The notes under the pieces were generated by a model. That model searched no databases. It saw only the letters and a list, made by a program, of their open reading frames with translations, and was not told the origin of the DNA. A stretch of 47,135 nucleotides of DNA from Haloparvum sedimenti (GTDB lineage Archaea; Halobacteriota; Halobacteria; Halobacteriales; Haloferacaceae): positions 1-47,135 of the forward strand of contig NZ_LKIR01000142.1 in assembly GCF_001462205.1 (NCBI RefSeq), written 5' to 3'. Of this stretch, positions 12,927 to 46,823 are shown one piece after another. The position numbers and the translations under genes were made by a program. Within the stretch, counting starts at the first letter, position 1, and each line of letters opens with the position of its first letter.

Positions 12927-13024
12927 TTTCTGCCCCTCTGTGGGAGGGTTTCTGTCCCTTCGCGGGGCGTTTTTGCCCCTCTGCGGGAGCGTTTCTGCCC
13001 CTCAGCGGACGCATTTCTGTCTCC
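12927..13024. repeat. About 22-bp T-rich tandem repeat between convergent genes
   Basis: Four units of 21-22 bp plus a partial fifth, each starting TTTCTG or TTTTTG and continuing CCCCTC.GCGGGAG-like. The array fills the gap between the 2H phosphoesterase stop (12913) and the P450 stop (13031). Each unit gives a T-run on the plus strand, so it may act as a transcription terminator for the plus-strand operon. Confidence 0.65.
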
Positions 13025-18700: not shown

Positions 18701-19732
18701 ATGCCCGAAGACGAACTCGAGGACCTTCCCGGCGTCGGCCCCGCGACGGCCGACAAACTCGTCGACAGCGGTTTCGAGAGCTACCAGAGCATCGCCGTGG
18801 CCAGCCCCGGCGAGCTGTCGAACACCGCAGACATCGGCGAGTCGTCCGCGTCCGACATCATCAACGCCGCCCGCGAGGCGGCGGACGTGGGCGGCTTCGA
18901 GACCGGCGCGACCGTGCTCGAACGACGCGAGCAGATCGGCAAGCTCTCGTGGCAGATCGACGAGGTGGACGAGCTGCTCGGCGGCGGTATCGAGACGCAG
19001 TCGATCACCGAGGTGTACGGCGAGTTCGGCGCCGGCAAGTCGCAGGTGACCCACCAGATGGCCGTCAACGTCCAGCTTCCGAAGGAGTACGGCGGCCTCG
19101 AGGGCGGCTGTATCTTCGTCGACTCCGAGGACACCTTCCGCCCCGAGCGGATCGACGACATGGTCCGCGGGCTGGACGACGAGATCCTCGCGAACGAGTT
19201 CGAGCGCCGCGAGATCGAGGGCTCGCCGGACGACGACGAGGCGATGGAGGAGCTCGTCGCCGCGTTCCTCGACCAGATCCACGTCGCGAAGGCGTTCAAC
19301 TCCAACCACCAGATTCTGCTCGCGGAGAAGGCCAAGGAGCTGGCCGGCGAGCACGAGGAAACGGAGTGGCCCATCCGCATCGTCTGCGTCGACTCGCTGA
19401 CCGCGCACTTCCGCGCCGAGTACGTCGGTCGGGGCGAACTCGCCGACCGCCAGCAGAAGCTCAACAAGCACCTTCACGACCTGATGCGGATCGGCGACCT
19501 GTTCAACACCGCCATCCTCGTCACCAACCAGGTCGCGTCGAACCCCGACTCCTACTTCGGCGACCCCACGCAGGCGATCGGCGGCAACATCCTCGGTCAC
19601 GCCTCCACGTTCCGGATGTACCTCCGCAAGTCGAAGGGCGACAAGCGGATCGTCCGCCTCGTCGACGCGCCCAACCTCGCGGACGGCGAGGCAGTCATGC
19701 GCGTCCAGAACGAGGGGCTGAAGCCGGAGTAA
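18701..19732 (+). CDS. radA: DNA repair and recombination protein RadA
   Basis: Archaeal RadA (Rad51/RecA family), 343 residues, the standard size in haloarchaea. It forms helical filaments on single-stranded DNA and drives strand exchange. The N-terminal HhH domain ([20 protein letters not shown]) spans residues 8-60. The polymerisation and ATPase core carries Walker A GEFGAGKS at 107-114 and Walker B ending in RIVCVDSLT, with L1/L2 loop regions and ATNQV-type [10 protein letters not shown] downstream. The gene is intact. A strong TATA box lies 28 nt upstream, and a structured repeat element with a T-run begins three bases after the stop. Confidence 0.98.
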
Positions 19733-19734
19733 GA

Positions 19735-19868
19735 CGACCTTTTTCTGCGGTCGGGTGAGCGCGGCGCAGGCGCCGCGCTCACCGCTCCCTTGAAAAATGT
19801 CGATCAAAAAGGGCCGCGGTCGGCGCTGCGGGCGCTTCGCGCCCTCGCGCCGCCGCGGTACCACGACC
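19735..19868 (-). repeat. Three-stem structured repeat element, copy near radA (inverted)
   Basis: Reverse complement of the element duplicated at 44580-44801. On the plus strand it has CGACC/GGTCG around a T-rich loop (19735-19753). A perfect 13-bp hairpin follows, with GTGAGCGCGGCGC (19756-19768) and GCGCCGCGCTCAC (19771-19783). Next comes ACCGCTCCCTT...AAGGG.CCGCGGT around TTGATCGACATTTTT-type sequence, then a stretch to GGTACCAC. The outer sequence and loops are conserved with the distal copies; the 13-bp stem differs there but is still paired. Confidence 0.75.
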
Positions 19869-19876
19869 TCGCACAT

Positions 19877-20035
19877 AACCGCACAGCGACCGCATCAGCA
19901 CCGCACCGCGGCCGAAACAGAAACCCGCACAGCGACCGCATCAGCACCGCACCGCGGCCGAAACAGAAACCCGCACAGCGACCGCGACCGCCACAGCACC
20001 GCACCGCCACAGCACCGCACCGCGACCGCAGGAGA
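19877..20035 (-). repeat. Tandem repeat array beside the structured element
   Basis: Two full 46-bp units (CGCACAGCGACCGCATCAGC, then ACCGCACCGCGGCCGAAAC, AGAAACC) and shorter CACAGCACCGCACCG derivatives. The word GCGACCGCATCAGCACCGCA is the reverse complement of the 22-bp unit in the array at 44304-44540. At both loci the array is next to the three-stem element, on the same side and at the same distance. It has no coding potential beyond repetitive artefact frames. Confidence 0.7.
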
Positions 20036-40153: not shown

Positions 40154-40217
40154 TCAGAAGTCGTCCGCCTCAGAAGTCGTCCGCCTCAGAAGTCGTCCGC
40201 CTCAGAAGTCGTCCGCC

Positions 40218-40233
<16 letters not shown>
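40154..40233 (-). repeat. Five 16-bp tandem units containing the uvrB stop codon
   Basis: Five identical units of TCAGAAGTCGTCCGCC (plus strand) at 40154, 40170, 40186, 40202 and 40218. On the minus strand each reads GGCGGACGACTTCTGA, i.e. codons for ADDF plus TGA. The gene-proximal unit (40218-40233) is the real end of uvrB; four copies follow it. As 16 is not a multiple of 3, the copies place TGA in all three frames. Confidence 0.9.
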
Positions 40234-42275
<2,042 letters not shown>

Positions 42276-42643: not shown

Positions 42644-44269
42644 ATGACCGACACGACGGAGACTCGGAACGCGACGCGACGCCGGTTTCTGACGGCCGCG
42701 GGGGCCGCGGGCGCGACCGCGCTCGCCGGCTGTACGGGCGGCGAGGACATCGAGGAGATCGAGGAGAGCGCCGAGGGCGCGGGCGGAGAGGGCGGCGAAA
42801 CGGAGACGACGACCGAGGGCGGCGAGGAGGACGCCGACGCGATCACGATCACGCAGGGGAACCTCGTGGCGACGCTCGACCCGCAGAACCACGGCGAGAC
42901 GCCGACGACGAACGTGCTCCGGCAGGCCTACGAGACGCTCGTCTTCCGGGACGCGGACGGCCGGCTCGTCGGCCAGCTCGCGACCGACTGGGAGCGCGTC
43001 GAGGACGGGCGCGCCGACCTGACGCTGCGGGAGGGCGTGCAGTTCCACTCCGGCTCCGAGCTGGCCGCGAGCGACGCCGCCTACTCGATCAACCGCGTCG
43101 TCGACGACGACGTGGACATCGTCAGCGCGCGGAAGGACCAGCTGCCCGGCATCGACGAGGCGACCGCGGACGACGAGGCCGGCGTGGTCACGATCGAGTC
43201 GGGCGCCGTGAACCCGACCATCTTCTCGGACCTGGCGACGACCGGGAACGTGCTGGAGAAGGCGTGGGTGGCCGAGAACGACATCGCGCAGGCGGTCAAC
43301 GGCACCGGCGCCTACGAACTGGCCGAGTACGAGGAGGACGTGTCGATCACCTTCGAGCGCTTCGACGGTTACTGGGGCGAGGAGCCGGACGTCCGCGAGG
43401 TCACGTTCAACGCCGCCAGCGAGGTCAGCTCCCGCGTCTCCGCGCTGCTGGCCGGCGAGACGGACCTCACCGTCAACGTCCCGCCCAACGAGGTGCCTCG
43501 GATCGAGGAGCAGGAGGGCACCGACATCACCGCGGTGCCGAGCACGCGCATCATCTTCGCGCCGATGCGCTACGACGTGGAGCCGTTCTCCTCGCCGGAG
43601 TTCCGGCAGGCGCTCAACTACGCGGTCGACCTCGAGTCGATCATCGACAACGTGCTCGACGGCTTCGGTGACCCCACCTCGCAGGCGACGCTCGAGGGGT
43701 ACACGGGCTACAACGACGACATCGAGCCGTACCCGCACGACCCCGAGCGTGCCGAGGAACTGGTCGAGGAGTCCGGTCACGCTGGCGTGGAGATCACCCT
43801 CGAGACGCCGGTCGGACGCTACCTCCGCGACGTGGAGATCGCCGAGACGGTCGCGGGCTTCATCGACGACCTCGACAACGTCTCCTGTTCGGTCCAGCAG
43901 CGCGAGTTCGGCGCGCTGGTGCAGGAGATCGTCGACGGGAAGCTGGAGACGCGGCCGAAGTTCCACCTCATCGGCTTCGGCAACCCAACCTTCGACGCCG
44001 CGCGCAACATCCTGCCGTACCTCGTCAGCGACGGCGCGTGGATGCACTGGGCCGACGACCGCGTCGACGAGCTCATGGCGCAGGCCGGCGAGGAGGGCGA
44101 CCCCGAGGAGCGCGACGCCCTGCTGCAGGAGGCGAACGCGATCATCCACGAGCAGGCGCCGTGGGTGTTCCTGAACCGCCAGTACTCCGTCTACGGCGTC
44201 AGCGACCGCATCGAGTGGGACGCGCGCCGCGACGAGCGCATCCTCGTGAAGGAGATGGCGCTGGCCTGA
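42644..44269 (+). CDS. Oligopeptide/nickel-type ABC substrate-binding lipoprotein (orphan)
   Basis: 541 residues of the SBP family 5 (DppA/OppA/NikA). The N-terminus has a Tat motif RRRFL at 12-16 and a lipobox LAGC with Cys30, so it is exported folded and lipid-anchored. An acidic linker follows, then the binding fold (TLDPQNHGETPTTNVLRQAY, LREGVQFHSGSELAASDA, EFRQALNYAVD, YTGYNDDIEPYPHDPERAEE). No permease or ATPase genes lie next to it, although they would normally follow; a T-rich unit and a repeat array come instead. CGCTTAGG about 27 nt before the ATG supports the start. The solute is not known. Confidence 0.92.
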   Translation: MTDTTETRNATRRRFLTAAGAAGATALAGCTGGEDIEEIEESAEGAGGEGGETETTTEGGEEDADAITITQGNLVATLDPQNHGETPTTNVLRQAYETLVFRDADGRLVGQLATDWERVEDGRADLTLREGVQFHSGSELAASDAAYSINRVVDDDVDIVSARKDQLPGIDEATADDEAGVVTIESGAVNPTIFSDLATTGNVLEKAWVAENDIAQAVNGTGAYELAEYEEDVSITFERFDGYWGEEPDVREVTFNAASEVSSRVSALLAGETDLTVNVPPNEVPRIEEQEGTDITAVPSTRIIFAPMRYDVEPFSSPEFRQALNYAVDLESIIDNVLDGFGDPTSQATLEGYTGYNDDIEPYPHDPERAEELVEESGHAGVEITLETPVGRYLRDVEIAETVAGFIDDLDNVSCSVQQREFGALVQEIVDGKLETRPKFHLIGFGNPTFDAARNILPYLVSDGAWMHWADDRVDELMAQAGEEGDPEERDALLQEANAIIHEQAPWVFLNRQYSVYGVSDRIEWDARRDERILVKEMALA

Positions 44270-44303: not shown

Positions 44304-44540
44304 TCGCGGTCGCGGTGCGGTGCTGATGCGGTCGCAGTGCGGTGCTGATGCGGTCGCGGTGCGGTGCTGATGCGGTCGCGGTGCGGTGCTGATGCGGTCG
44401 CAGTGCGGTGCTGATGCGGTCGCAGTGCGGTGCTGATGCGGTCGCAGTGCGGTGCTGATGCGGTCGCAGTGCGGTGCTGATGCGGTCGCGGTGCGGTGCT
44501 GATGCGGTCGCGGTGCGGTGCTGATGCGGTCGCGGTGCTG
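44304..44540 (+). repeat. 22-bp minisatellite array, about ten units
   Basis: About ten tandem copies of GCGGTCGCAGTGCGGTGCTG+AT, varying only G/A at one position. The array begins 35 bp after the binding-protein stop. The same word in reverse complement makes the array at 19877-20035. It generates long repetitive open frames on both strands that are not genes. Confidence 0.85.
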
Positions 44541-44579
44541 CTCCTGTCTCGGTTGTGGTACCGCGGCGGCGCGAGGGCG

Positions 44580-44801
44580 CGAAGCGCCCGGAGCGCCGAC
44601 CGCGGCCCCTTTTTGATCGACATTTTTCAAGGGAGCGGTCAAGCCGGCGCTCTGCGCCGGCGCGACCCGACGCAAAAAAAGGTCGGGGTGCGAAGCGCCC
44701 GGAGCGCCGACCGCGGCTCCTTTTTGATCGACATTTTTCAAGGGAGCGGTCAAGCCGGCGCTCTGCGCCGGCGCGACCCGACGCAGAAAAAGGTCGGGGG
44801 A
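44580..44801 (+). repeat. Three-stem structured element, two tandem 111-bp copies
   Basis: Copy 1 is 44580-44690 and copy 2 44691-44801; they differ at about two internal bases. Each has ACCGC..CCCTT / AAGGGAGCGGT around TTTGATCGACATTTTTC, then the GC hairpin GCCGGCGC TCT GCGCCGGC, then CCCGAC / GTCGGG around an A-run. A third copy lies inverted at 19735-19868. The second copy ends just before the acyl-CoA synthetase promoter. Confidence 0.85.
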
Positions 44802-44834: not shown

Positions 44835-46823
44835 ATGAGTTGGCAGGAAGCCGAGCGGGAGTTCTCGGACCCGGCGATCGCGACCGAGACGCTCCCCCGA
44901 ACGTTCGAGCGGAGCGCGGACCGGAACGCCGACCGCGTGGCGCAGCGGTACAAGGGGGGGATCTACGACCGGTCGCTCGTCTCCGCGGGCGTCGTCCCGC
45001 CGGCCGCGGAGGGGGAGTACGCCGACCTCACCTACGCCGAAACGCGCGACATCGTCCGCAACCTCGCGGCCGGCTTCCGAGAGATCGGCGTCGAGAACGG
45101 GACGCGAGTCGCGATCTACGCCCACACGCGGATGGAGTGGGCACAGACGGACTTCGCGGCGCTGGCGGCGGGCGCGGCCGTCACGACCGTCTATCCCTCC
45201 TCGTCGGACGATCAGCTCCAGTATCTGCTCGAGGACCCCGAGGCGACCGTCGTCGTCGCGGAGGACCGCGACCTTCTCGAGCAGGTGCAGGGCGTCCGCG
45301 ACGACCTCGGGCACGACCTCGACGCGGTCGTGTCGTTCGACGACCCCGGCGAGGCGGGCGCGGAGCCGGACGTTTTCACCCTCGGCGACCTCCACGAGCG
45401 CGGTTCGGAGGCGTTCGATCTCGACGCCTACGAGTCGTGGCTCGACGACACGGAGATGGACGACCTCGCGAGCCTCATCTACACCTCGGGGACGACGGGC
45501 CGACCGAAGGGCGTCCAGCTCACGCACGCCAACTTCCGGGCGAACGTCAACCAGTGTTACCGGCGGTTCGCGGACCGCCCCGACCGCGACCCCGACGTGG
45601 CGGGGATCTCCGCGGAGTCGACCACGCTCTCGTTCCTGCCGCTCGCGCACGTCTTCGAGCGGCTGGCGGGTCACTACATGATGTTCGCGGCGGGCGCGAC
45701 CGTCGCGTACGCCGAGAGCCCGGACACGCTGCGGGAGGACTTCGGGCTGGTGCGACCCACCACCACCACGAGCGTTCCGCGCGTCTACGAGAAGCTCTAC
45801 GACGCCATCCGCGAGCAGGCGAGCGAGTCGCCGGTCAAGGAGCGGATCTTCGAGTGGGCCGTCGACGTGGGCCGGGCGTACCACGAGGCGGACGACCCCG
45901 GCGCGCTGCTGTCGGCCAAACGGTCGATCGCGGACCGGCTGGTCTTCTCCAGCGTTCGCGAGGGCGTCGGCGGGAACATCGACTTCTTCATCTCCGGCGG
46001 CGGGTCGCTCTCCGCGGAGCTGTGCGCGCTCTATCACGGGATGGACCTCCCGATCTTGGAGGGGTACGGGCTCACCGAGACCTCGCCGGTGATCAGCGTC
46101 AACCCGCCGGAGGAGCCGAAGGTCGGCACCATCGGCCCCCCGGTGGTCGACACGGAGATCCGGATCGACGACGCGGTCGTCGGCGAGGAGGTCGCGGACC
46201 TCGACGGCGAGGTGGGCGAACTGCTCGTCCGCGGCCCGCAGGTCACCGACGGCTACTGGCAGAAGCCGGAGGCGACCGCGGAGGCGTTCACCGAGGCCGA
46301 CGACGGCGGCGACCCGTGGTTCCGGACCGGCGACATCGTCCAGGTCCGACCGGACGGTTACATCGCGTTCCGCGAGCGCGCCAAGCAGCTGCTGGTGCTC
46401 TCGACGGGAAAGAACGTCGCGCCCGGCCCCATCGAGGACCGATTCGCTGCCAACGAGTTCGTCGAGCAGTGTCTGGTGCTCGGGGACTCCCGGAAGTTCG
46501 TCTCCGCCATCCTCGTGCCCAACTTCGAGCGCGTCGAGGCGTGGGCGGCCGACCGCGGCATCGACCTCCCGGACGACCGGACGGCGATCTGCCGTGACGA
46601 ACGCGTCCGCGAGCGCATTCAGGAAGAGATCGACCGCGTGAACGAGGAGTTCGAGGCGTTCGAGCAGATCAAGCAGTTCCGGCTCGTCGCCGAGGAGTTC
46701 ACCGAGGAGAACGACCTGCTCACGCCGACGATGAAGAAGAAACGTCGGAACATTCTGGAGCGGTTCGCCGACGAGGTGGAGATCATCTACGAGTCGCCGG
46801 ACGAGAGCCCGGTCGACGACTGA
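44835..46823 (+). CDS. Long-chain acyl-CoA synthetase (AMP-forming)
   Basis: 662 residues of the ANL superfamily, activating fatty acids to acyl-AMP and then acyl-CoA. The P-loop YTSGTTGRPKG is near residues 215-225. A5/A7-like motifs GYGLTETSPV and WFRTGDIV follow, and the C-terminal hinge and Lys region comes with GKNVAPGPIED and LLTPTMKKKRR. The size and motif set fit FadD15/long-chain synthetases rather than acetyl-CoA synthetase. The ATG at 44835 is chosen because the sequence before it is repeat DNA and GTTTATTAAC lies about 27 nt upstream. No beta-oxidation gene is adjacent. A TTTTCTGT unit follows 28 bp after the stop. Confidence 0.93.
   Translation: MSWQEAEREFSDPAIATETLPRTFERSADRNADRVAQRYKGGIYDRSLVSAGVVPPAAEGEYADLTYAETRDIVRNLAAGFREIGVENGTRVAIYAHTRMEWAQTDFAALAAGAAVTTVYPSSSDDQLQYLLEDPEATVVVAEDRDLLEQVQGVRDDLGHDLDAVVSFDDPGEAGAEPDVFTLGDLHERGSEAFDLDAYESWLDDTEMDDLASLIYTSGTTGRPKGVQLTHANFRANVNQCYRRFADRPDRDPDVAGISAESTTLSFLPLAHVFERLAGHYMMFAAGATVAYAESPDTLREDFGLVRPTTTTSVPRVYEKLYDAIREQASESPVKERIFEWAVDVGRAYHEADDPGALLSAKRSIADRLVFSSVREGVGGNIDFFISGGGSLSAELCALYHGMDLPILEGYGLTETSPVISVNPPEEPKVGTIGPPVVDTEIRIDDAVVGEEVADLDGEVGELLVRGPQVTDGYWQKPEATAEAFTEADDGGDPWFRTGDIVQVRPDGYIAFRERAKQLLVLSTGKNVAPGPIEDRFAANEFVEQCLVLGDSRKFVSAILVPNFERVEAWAADRGIDLPDDRTAICRDERVRERIQEEIDRVNEEFEAFEQIKQFRLVAEEFTEENDLLTPTMKKKRRNILERFADEVEIIYESPDESPVDD

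Follow-up and report, generated by a model that had tools for sequence, protein, structure and literature searches.

What is the short palindromic element that follows radA in Haloparvum sedimenti, and recurs some 25 kb further along the same stretch of DNA? The initial annotation, made from the 47,135 nucleotides of that stretch (the window), described one composite element copied to two places, and offered a structured RNA, a terminator or a REP-like mobile hairpin as its identity. Much of this description stands. The element copies are present at both loci on opposite strands (Table 1), both of the middle stems that were named are perfectly paired, and the conserved loops match the description. 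At each locus an array identified by TRF lies on the stem-1 side behind a linker of about 20 nt. Copy 1 begins 2 nt past the radA stop codon, and the 46-bp array beside it is found at 19879-19985, becoming less regular up to 20030. Strand B is here the strand that reads stem 1 first, while strand A, its complement, reads away from the flanking stop codon.

Table 1. Element copies, companion arrays and neighbouring genes in the window
Feature	Position	Strand	Evidence or remark
radA (Rad51 family), upstream of copy 1	18701..19732	+	Pfam PF08423, E 2e-73
Complete copy 1	19735..19859	- (strand B on minus)	R1 match 138.7 bits, E 7e-28
TTTTTC (T5C), strand A of copy 1	19740..19745	+	7 nt past radA stop
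Middle stem of copy 1, GGTGAGCGCGGCGC-AG-GCGCCGCGCTCACC	19754..19783		14 perfect pairs
TTTTTC, strand B of copy 1, second T tract	19792..19797	-	Sequence
Stem 1 of copy 1, large GC-rich hairpin, lineage-specific	19814..19858		Consensus structure
Companion minisatellite near copy 1, 46-bp and shorter units	19879..20030		TRF
Solute-binding protein gene, upstream of the array and copies 2 and 3	42644..44269	+	Pfam PF00496, E 1e-61
Companion minisatellite near copies 2 and 3, 22-bp unit, 10.6 copies	44306..44538		TRF
Complete copy 2	44560..44685	+	R1 match 138.5 bits, E 8e-28
TTTTTC, strand B of copy 2, second T tract	44623..44628	+	Sequence
Middle stem of copy 2, GCCGGCGC-TCT-GCGCCGGC	44643..44661		Sequence
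Tandem copy 3, without the 5' arm of stem 1	44691..44796	+	R1 match 75 bits; 111-bp tandem repeat
AMP-binding enzyme gene, downstream of copy 3	44835..46823	+	Pfam PF00501, E 5e-80

A total of about 24 copies of the three-stem element were identified in the H. sedimenti genome by DNA and model searches. Nineteen of these align at a mean column identity of 91%. Stem 1, TTTTTGATCGACATTTTT and AAAAAGGTCG are nearly invariant in this genome. The middle stem varies in sequence, with 17 versions, and is perfectly paired over 7 to 14 bp in all 23 of the copies examined; further copies with an unpaired middle stem, which the initial annotation named as evidence against its reading, were not encountered among them. 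The MFE z-scores for the two strands of one copy are -5.6 and -4.4. Taken with the copy number and the pairing of the middle stem in 23 of 23 copies, these scores place the element far beyond chance. Two copies (L012 855-1028 and L021 1398-1573) share the same insert of two extra hairpins in the middle stem region (GCGAGACCC..GGGTCTCGC and CCCCGAGC..GCTCGGGG). On an H. sedimenti contig outside the window (C49:69772; L198 930-1280), there are three occurrences of the argF (OTCase) 3' end, separated by elements; in the stretch read, the first and the last of these differ at synonymous sites only.

The first model (R1) was built from these H. sedimenti copies, and gave 13 weak matches outside this genome. 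It missed nearly all of the relatives because its stem 1 is lineage-specific. On reading, the weak matches proved to have the same plan with other stems, and therefore a 65-column core model (R2) was made from 11 sequences with the hairpins trimmed. R2 has matches in 103 of the 170 genomes of the host's taxonomic family (E<=1e-3) and in 290 of the 342 genomes of its order, from 81 of the 89 genera (E<=1e-4), with the copies per genome being minimum numbers. The covariance-type search of related genomes advised in the initial annotation thus uncovered many further copies, and the idea of a repeat restricted to a single genus was wrong. Within the order R2 reaches an E value of 5e-16, against a best of 3e-5 outside it, where a phylum-wide draw gave about 11 genomes with one to three marginal matches. 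Weak matches (E 5e-5 to 5e-4) recur in four genomes of about 1 Mb from one genus outside the order (G469, G498, G503 and G518; family f31, genus g118), and these may be real distant relatives. A match in an actinomycete contig (L076; 12 bits) was rejected as due to chance.

Copy number differs strongly among related species, and near-identical copies are found at unrelated loci. The element is also carried by plasmids: blastn of plasmids and phages with a 167-bp query matched ten haloarchaeal plasmids, from Natrinema, Halobellus, Haloarcula, Halorussus, Halomontanus, Halomicrobium and Natronococcus. No annotated feature lies under the match in any of the ten records, two of which have no annotation at all. 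The same blastn search had no match with the 70-bp core or with the H. sedimenti element as the query, and a strict pattern had no match in viral contigs. A literature search that covered sources other than subscription journals and supplements found no description of the family, which is apparently undescribed among haloarchaeal mobile repeats.

Across the order, the element is about 105 to 160 bp and is made up of a conserved core followed by one or two lineage-specific hairpins. On strand A the core reads CSACC-TTTTTC-NNCGTCGGGT-hairpin-ACCRCTCCTYG-AAAAA-NNTSGANN-AAAAAGG; it forms an inverted repeat whose T5 tracts point in both directions. The sequences of the internal loop and linker are conserved across genera, while CGTC precedes the inner stem in most copies and is not constant. 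In an alignment of 96 distinct cores, which was fitted to the model and so favours pairing, standard pairs account for 97.8% of the pair cells and double changes for 183 cells, versus a mean of 64 after shuffling and 6 to 38 when the partner was slid. The terminal pairs alone occur as CGA/TCG, CCA/TGG, GGA/TCC and, once, GCA/TGC.

Strong covariation of this kind is a point in favour of a structured RNA made from one strand, such as a 3' UTR element or small RNA, that has been duplicated around the genome. So are the two U5 tracts and one A5 tract of strand B and the internal-loop letters GAGY / CGA, which could form tandem G-A pairs on that strand; a U.A-U triple helix there would be speculation. 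A helix selected as a single RNA usually tolerates G-U pairs on its own strand. Here, compensatory changes are abundant, yet G-U pairs are nearly absent and symmetric, strand B having 8 and strand A 9 in approximately 1475 cells. This rarity and symmetry point to pairing in DNA, to correction by template switching, or to use of both strands. A DNA palindrome, or a function on both strands, therefore fits better than a one-strand RNA. The orientation of genes relative to the element is mixed, and searches of Rfam gave no match within the window and, at eight related loci, only an adjacent tRNA, on which two further matches below threshold were due to chance. Of the identities first proposed, the structured RNA is thus not favoured and is judged very unlikely.

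The position of the copies was compared with genes called by a simple codon-usage script. None of the copies is inside a called gene. In the frame of strand A, 15 of 29 co-oriented left neighbours outside H. sedimenti have their stop codon 0 to 6 nt from the core, and within this genome the stop codon is no more than 25 nt away in 14 of 15 cases. Some copies are directly 3' of tRNA genes (L117, L089 and L121). Gene starts that adjoin the element on this side are mostly 30 to 60 nt away, which leaves room for a promoter. About 13 of the 94 copies are between divergently transcribed genes.

Stretches of T terminate transcription in Haloferax volcanii, where an inserted T5C was enough to stop 95% of the transcripts in vivo (PMC7237163). 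Of the 96 cores, 84 carry the motif TTTTTC at the strand-A entry and 81 carry it at the second T tract of strand B. These frequencies are partly ascertained, since the model used for the search itself includes the T tracts; in the flanking DNA the motif occurs 0.18 times per kb. Judged by these motifs, the most likely effect of the element would be that of a two-way terminator. The terminator of the initial annotation is in this way retained in a modified form, with TTTTTC at gene ends on both strands and the putative signal carried by a mobile repeat. The T5C terminators of H. volcanii are likewise directly downstream of genes, but are unrelated single-gene sites (PMC7237163), whereas the signal here is on both strands of a repeated mobile element.

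Ordinary haloarchaeal terminators could have come to look alike through convergence, being neither homologous nor mobile, as a T5C and a hairpin at the end of a gene are what a terminator needs. This is scarcely credible in the face of internal-loop and linker sequences that are conserved across genera, of near-identical copies at unrelated loci, and of the clean gain of a block of 105 to 155 bp relative to empty sites.

Two such comparisons of filled and empty sites are available. The first is within one genus, where L129, L134 and L135 are filled and L145 is empty. At the empty site (G285), a putative aminopeptidase gene, named from its sequence, ends ...FEDGFEA* and the element is absent; the gene ends in the same way in the more distant G427 (L146). 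In the filled genomes (G280, G188 and G306), the final 44 bp of the aminopeptidase-like gene are doubled, with an element of about 105 bp between, and the new stop codon comes from the element (...FEDGFED*). The element at this locus is partly deleted in G367. In the second comparison, from another genus, about 155 bp have been inserted into a second repeat in G104 (L167), with duplication of CAG (3-5 bp). This repeat is uninterrupted in G126 and G108 (L209 and L211), and G110 seems to be without both the element and the repeat. The empty sites of both pairs have no T5, therefore the T5 was brought by the element. The second repeat is one of a family found in genus g21 (GGTGGCGCGCC...GAGGCTGGGGAGG, with its start near TCAGTACAG), and the insertions of the element into this family are at a constant place (L167 300-790, L163-L195). 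In one genus, many copies are separated by 11 nt from the terminus of another repeat.

Flanking duplications are found at about 16 of the 74 loci outside H. sedimenti, and measure 27 to 64 bp at those without a tandem element. Any gene segment duplicated in this way is the 3' end of the gene that flanks the stem-1 side. The lengths span 3 to approximately 67 bp, a spread which argues against one fixed staggered cut. Other than tandem arrays, no target duplication accompanies the R1-type copies of H. sedimenti, those of the window included, and the evidence that they too were inserted comes by inference from the rest of the family. At L109 (1301-1510), part of the 3' end of a tRNA-Arg gene is repeated after that gene and directly before the element, in the manner of an integration scar.

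The element may instead be a selfish mobile palindrome that is of no use to the host, its bias to gene ends reflecting selection against other insertions and its T tracts being its own transposition signal. Insertion at the two empty sites, the strongly variable copy number between related species, the nesting within another repeat and the copies between divergent genes would all be consistent with this. It accounts less readily for the retention of TTTTTC on both strands across the order and for the sharp mode 0 to 6 nt past stop codons, and is considered a somewhat unlikely explanation.

The initial annotation had the element always paired with a minisatellite. This is borne out in H. sedimenti, where, for 19 of 20 copies, TRF detected a tandem repeat no more than 250 bp away on the stem-1 side, and for none of the 20 on the opposite side; of the control gene 3' ends, 7 of 35 have one. 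Counted by eye, the exact motif CCGCATCAGCACCGC forms 14 clusters in the genome, 9 of which are next to an element. Elsewhere the pairing does not hold, with a minisatellite beside the element in 8 of 41 cases in other genera of the taxonomic family and in 1 of 33 in other families. Having been found with the element only in its own genome and a few relatives, the minisatellite was rejected as part of it, and is a lineage-specific companion rather than a defining component. The composite copied to two places was too narrow a description of an element that has about 24 copies here and belongs to a family spanning the order. Further tandem repeats are present in the window. A 22-bp repeat (TTTCTGCCCCTCTGCGGGAGCG, 4.3 copies) at 12927-13019 is exactly between two convergent genes and without the element, and a 16-bp unit (TCAGAAGTCGTCCGCC) is present in five perfect copies at 40154-40233, at the end of a minus-strand gene (40218-42275).

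The element can be compared with several known kinds of short repeat. Closest by description are the SMR-A of Haloquadratum walsbyi (HqIRS42, 43 and 55), which are about 110 bp, have inverted repeats and no transposase, are present in tens of copies per genome, and are inserted in or near other palindromic repeats (PMC3119063). The insertions of 105 to 160 bp with an inverted-repeat core seen here agree with the SMR-A in size and plan. However, no target duplication is reported for the SMR-A, and their preferred sites are said to be IS605-type elements and PATEs (PMC3119063). Here, duplications of 44 bp, 3-5 bp and up to approximately 67 bp are found, and gene 3' ends appear to dominate. The mobilization of the SMR-A has been called enigmatic (PMC3119063). 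Haloarchaeal PATEs and MITEs are also short non-coding mobile DNA with palindromes, but PATEs give no target duplication, unlike the element, and a MITE has the terminal repeats of a transposon resident in the genome (PMC3119063), while no transposon partner was found for the element.

REP elements, of the GTAG and CGTC superfamilies, are likewise palindromic, repeated, mostly downstream of genes and discussed as terminators, and their CGTC tag (PMC3733652) has a counterpart before the inner stem here. They are, however, 20 to 40 bp with stems of 5 to 13 bp (PMC3733652), as opposed to 105 to 160 bp and several stems. Those of the GTAG type go with RAYT transposases (PMC3733652). Here the Y1 (IS200-type) transposase, compared by its presence only, is absent from the element-rich genomes G104, G110 and G223 and present in the element-free G098 and G007. 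An IS200 or TnpA_REP enzyme, which the initial annotation had suggested looking for, does not, by its presence in these genomes, follow the element or its copy number and was on this basis rejected as the mobilizer. The mobility of the REP-like hairpin is upheld by the two filled and empty comparisons, while the element differs from REP families in its size, in its stems and, as judged by presence, in its lack of association with the Y1 enzyme.

Taken together, the element is probably a haloarchaea-wide non-autonomous mobile palindromic repeat that acts as a portable two-way terminator. Copies have inserted at new sites and can duplicate their target, as with the 44 bp at one empty site and 3-5 bp at the other. 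Their stems have stayed paired through double changes, a perfection that would be kept by template-switch correction in DNA, by use of both strands, or by both. The copies are outside coding regions, often directly after a stop codon or tRNA 3' end, and insertions would survive where they are harmless, either between genes or in last codons restored by the duplication. Each copy may then give its neighbours a TTTTTC terminator in both directions. Against this explanation are the approximately 13 of 94 copies between divergent genes, where a terminator is needless, the duplications of 44 and 3-5 bp, which fit no single known transposition mechanism, and the lack of target duplication at the window's R1-type copies. 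A bolder version is put forward tentatively, and is unlikely: that this is a class of archaeal mobile element spreading ready-made two-way terminators through nearly all haloarchaea, by a mechanism matching no known transposase here. Copying through RNA or template switching is considered as the possible mechanism because the target duplications are long and variable in length.

Short mobile repeats without a transposase have been described earlier in one haloarchaeon, and a similar kind is now seen across an order, with a shared core and visible insertions. The family belongs among the short non-autonomous mobile palindromes, of which it is a new variant that is unusually widespread and has a proposed function open to test. 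The pairs of filled and empty sites would offer a direct means of searching for the mobilizing enzyme. If the favoured reading is true, many haloarchaeal gene ends would carry terminators delivered by mobile DNA, and the mobility of the genome would be linked to its transcription units.
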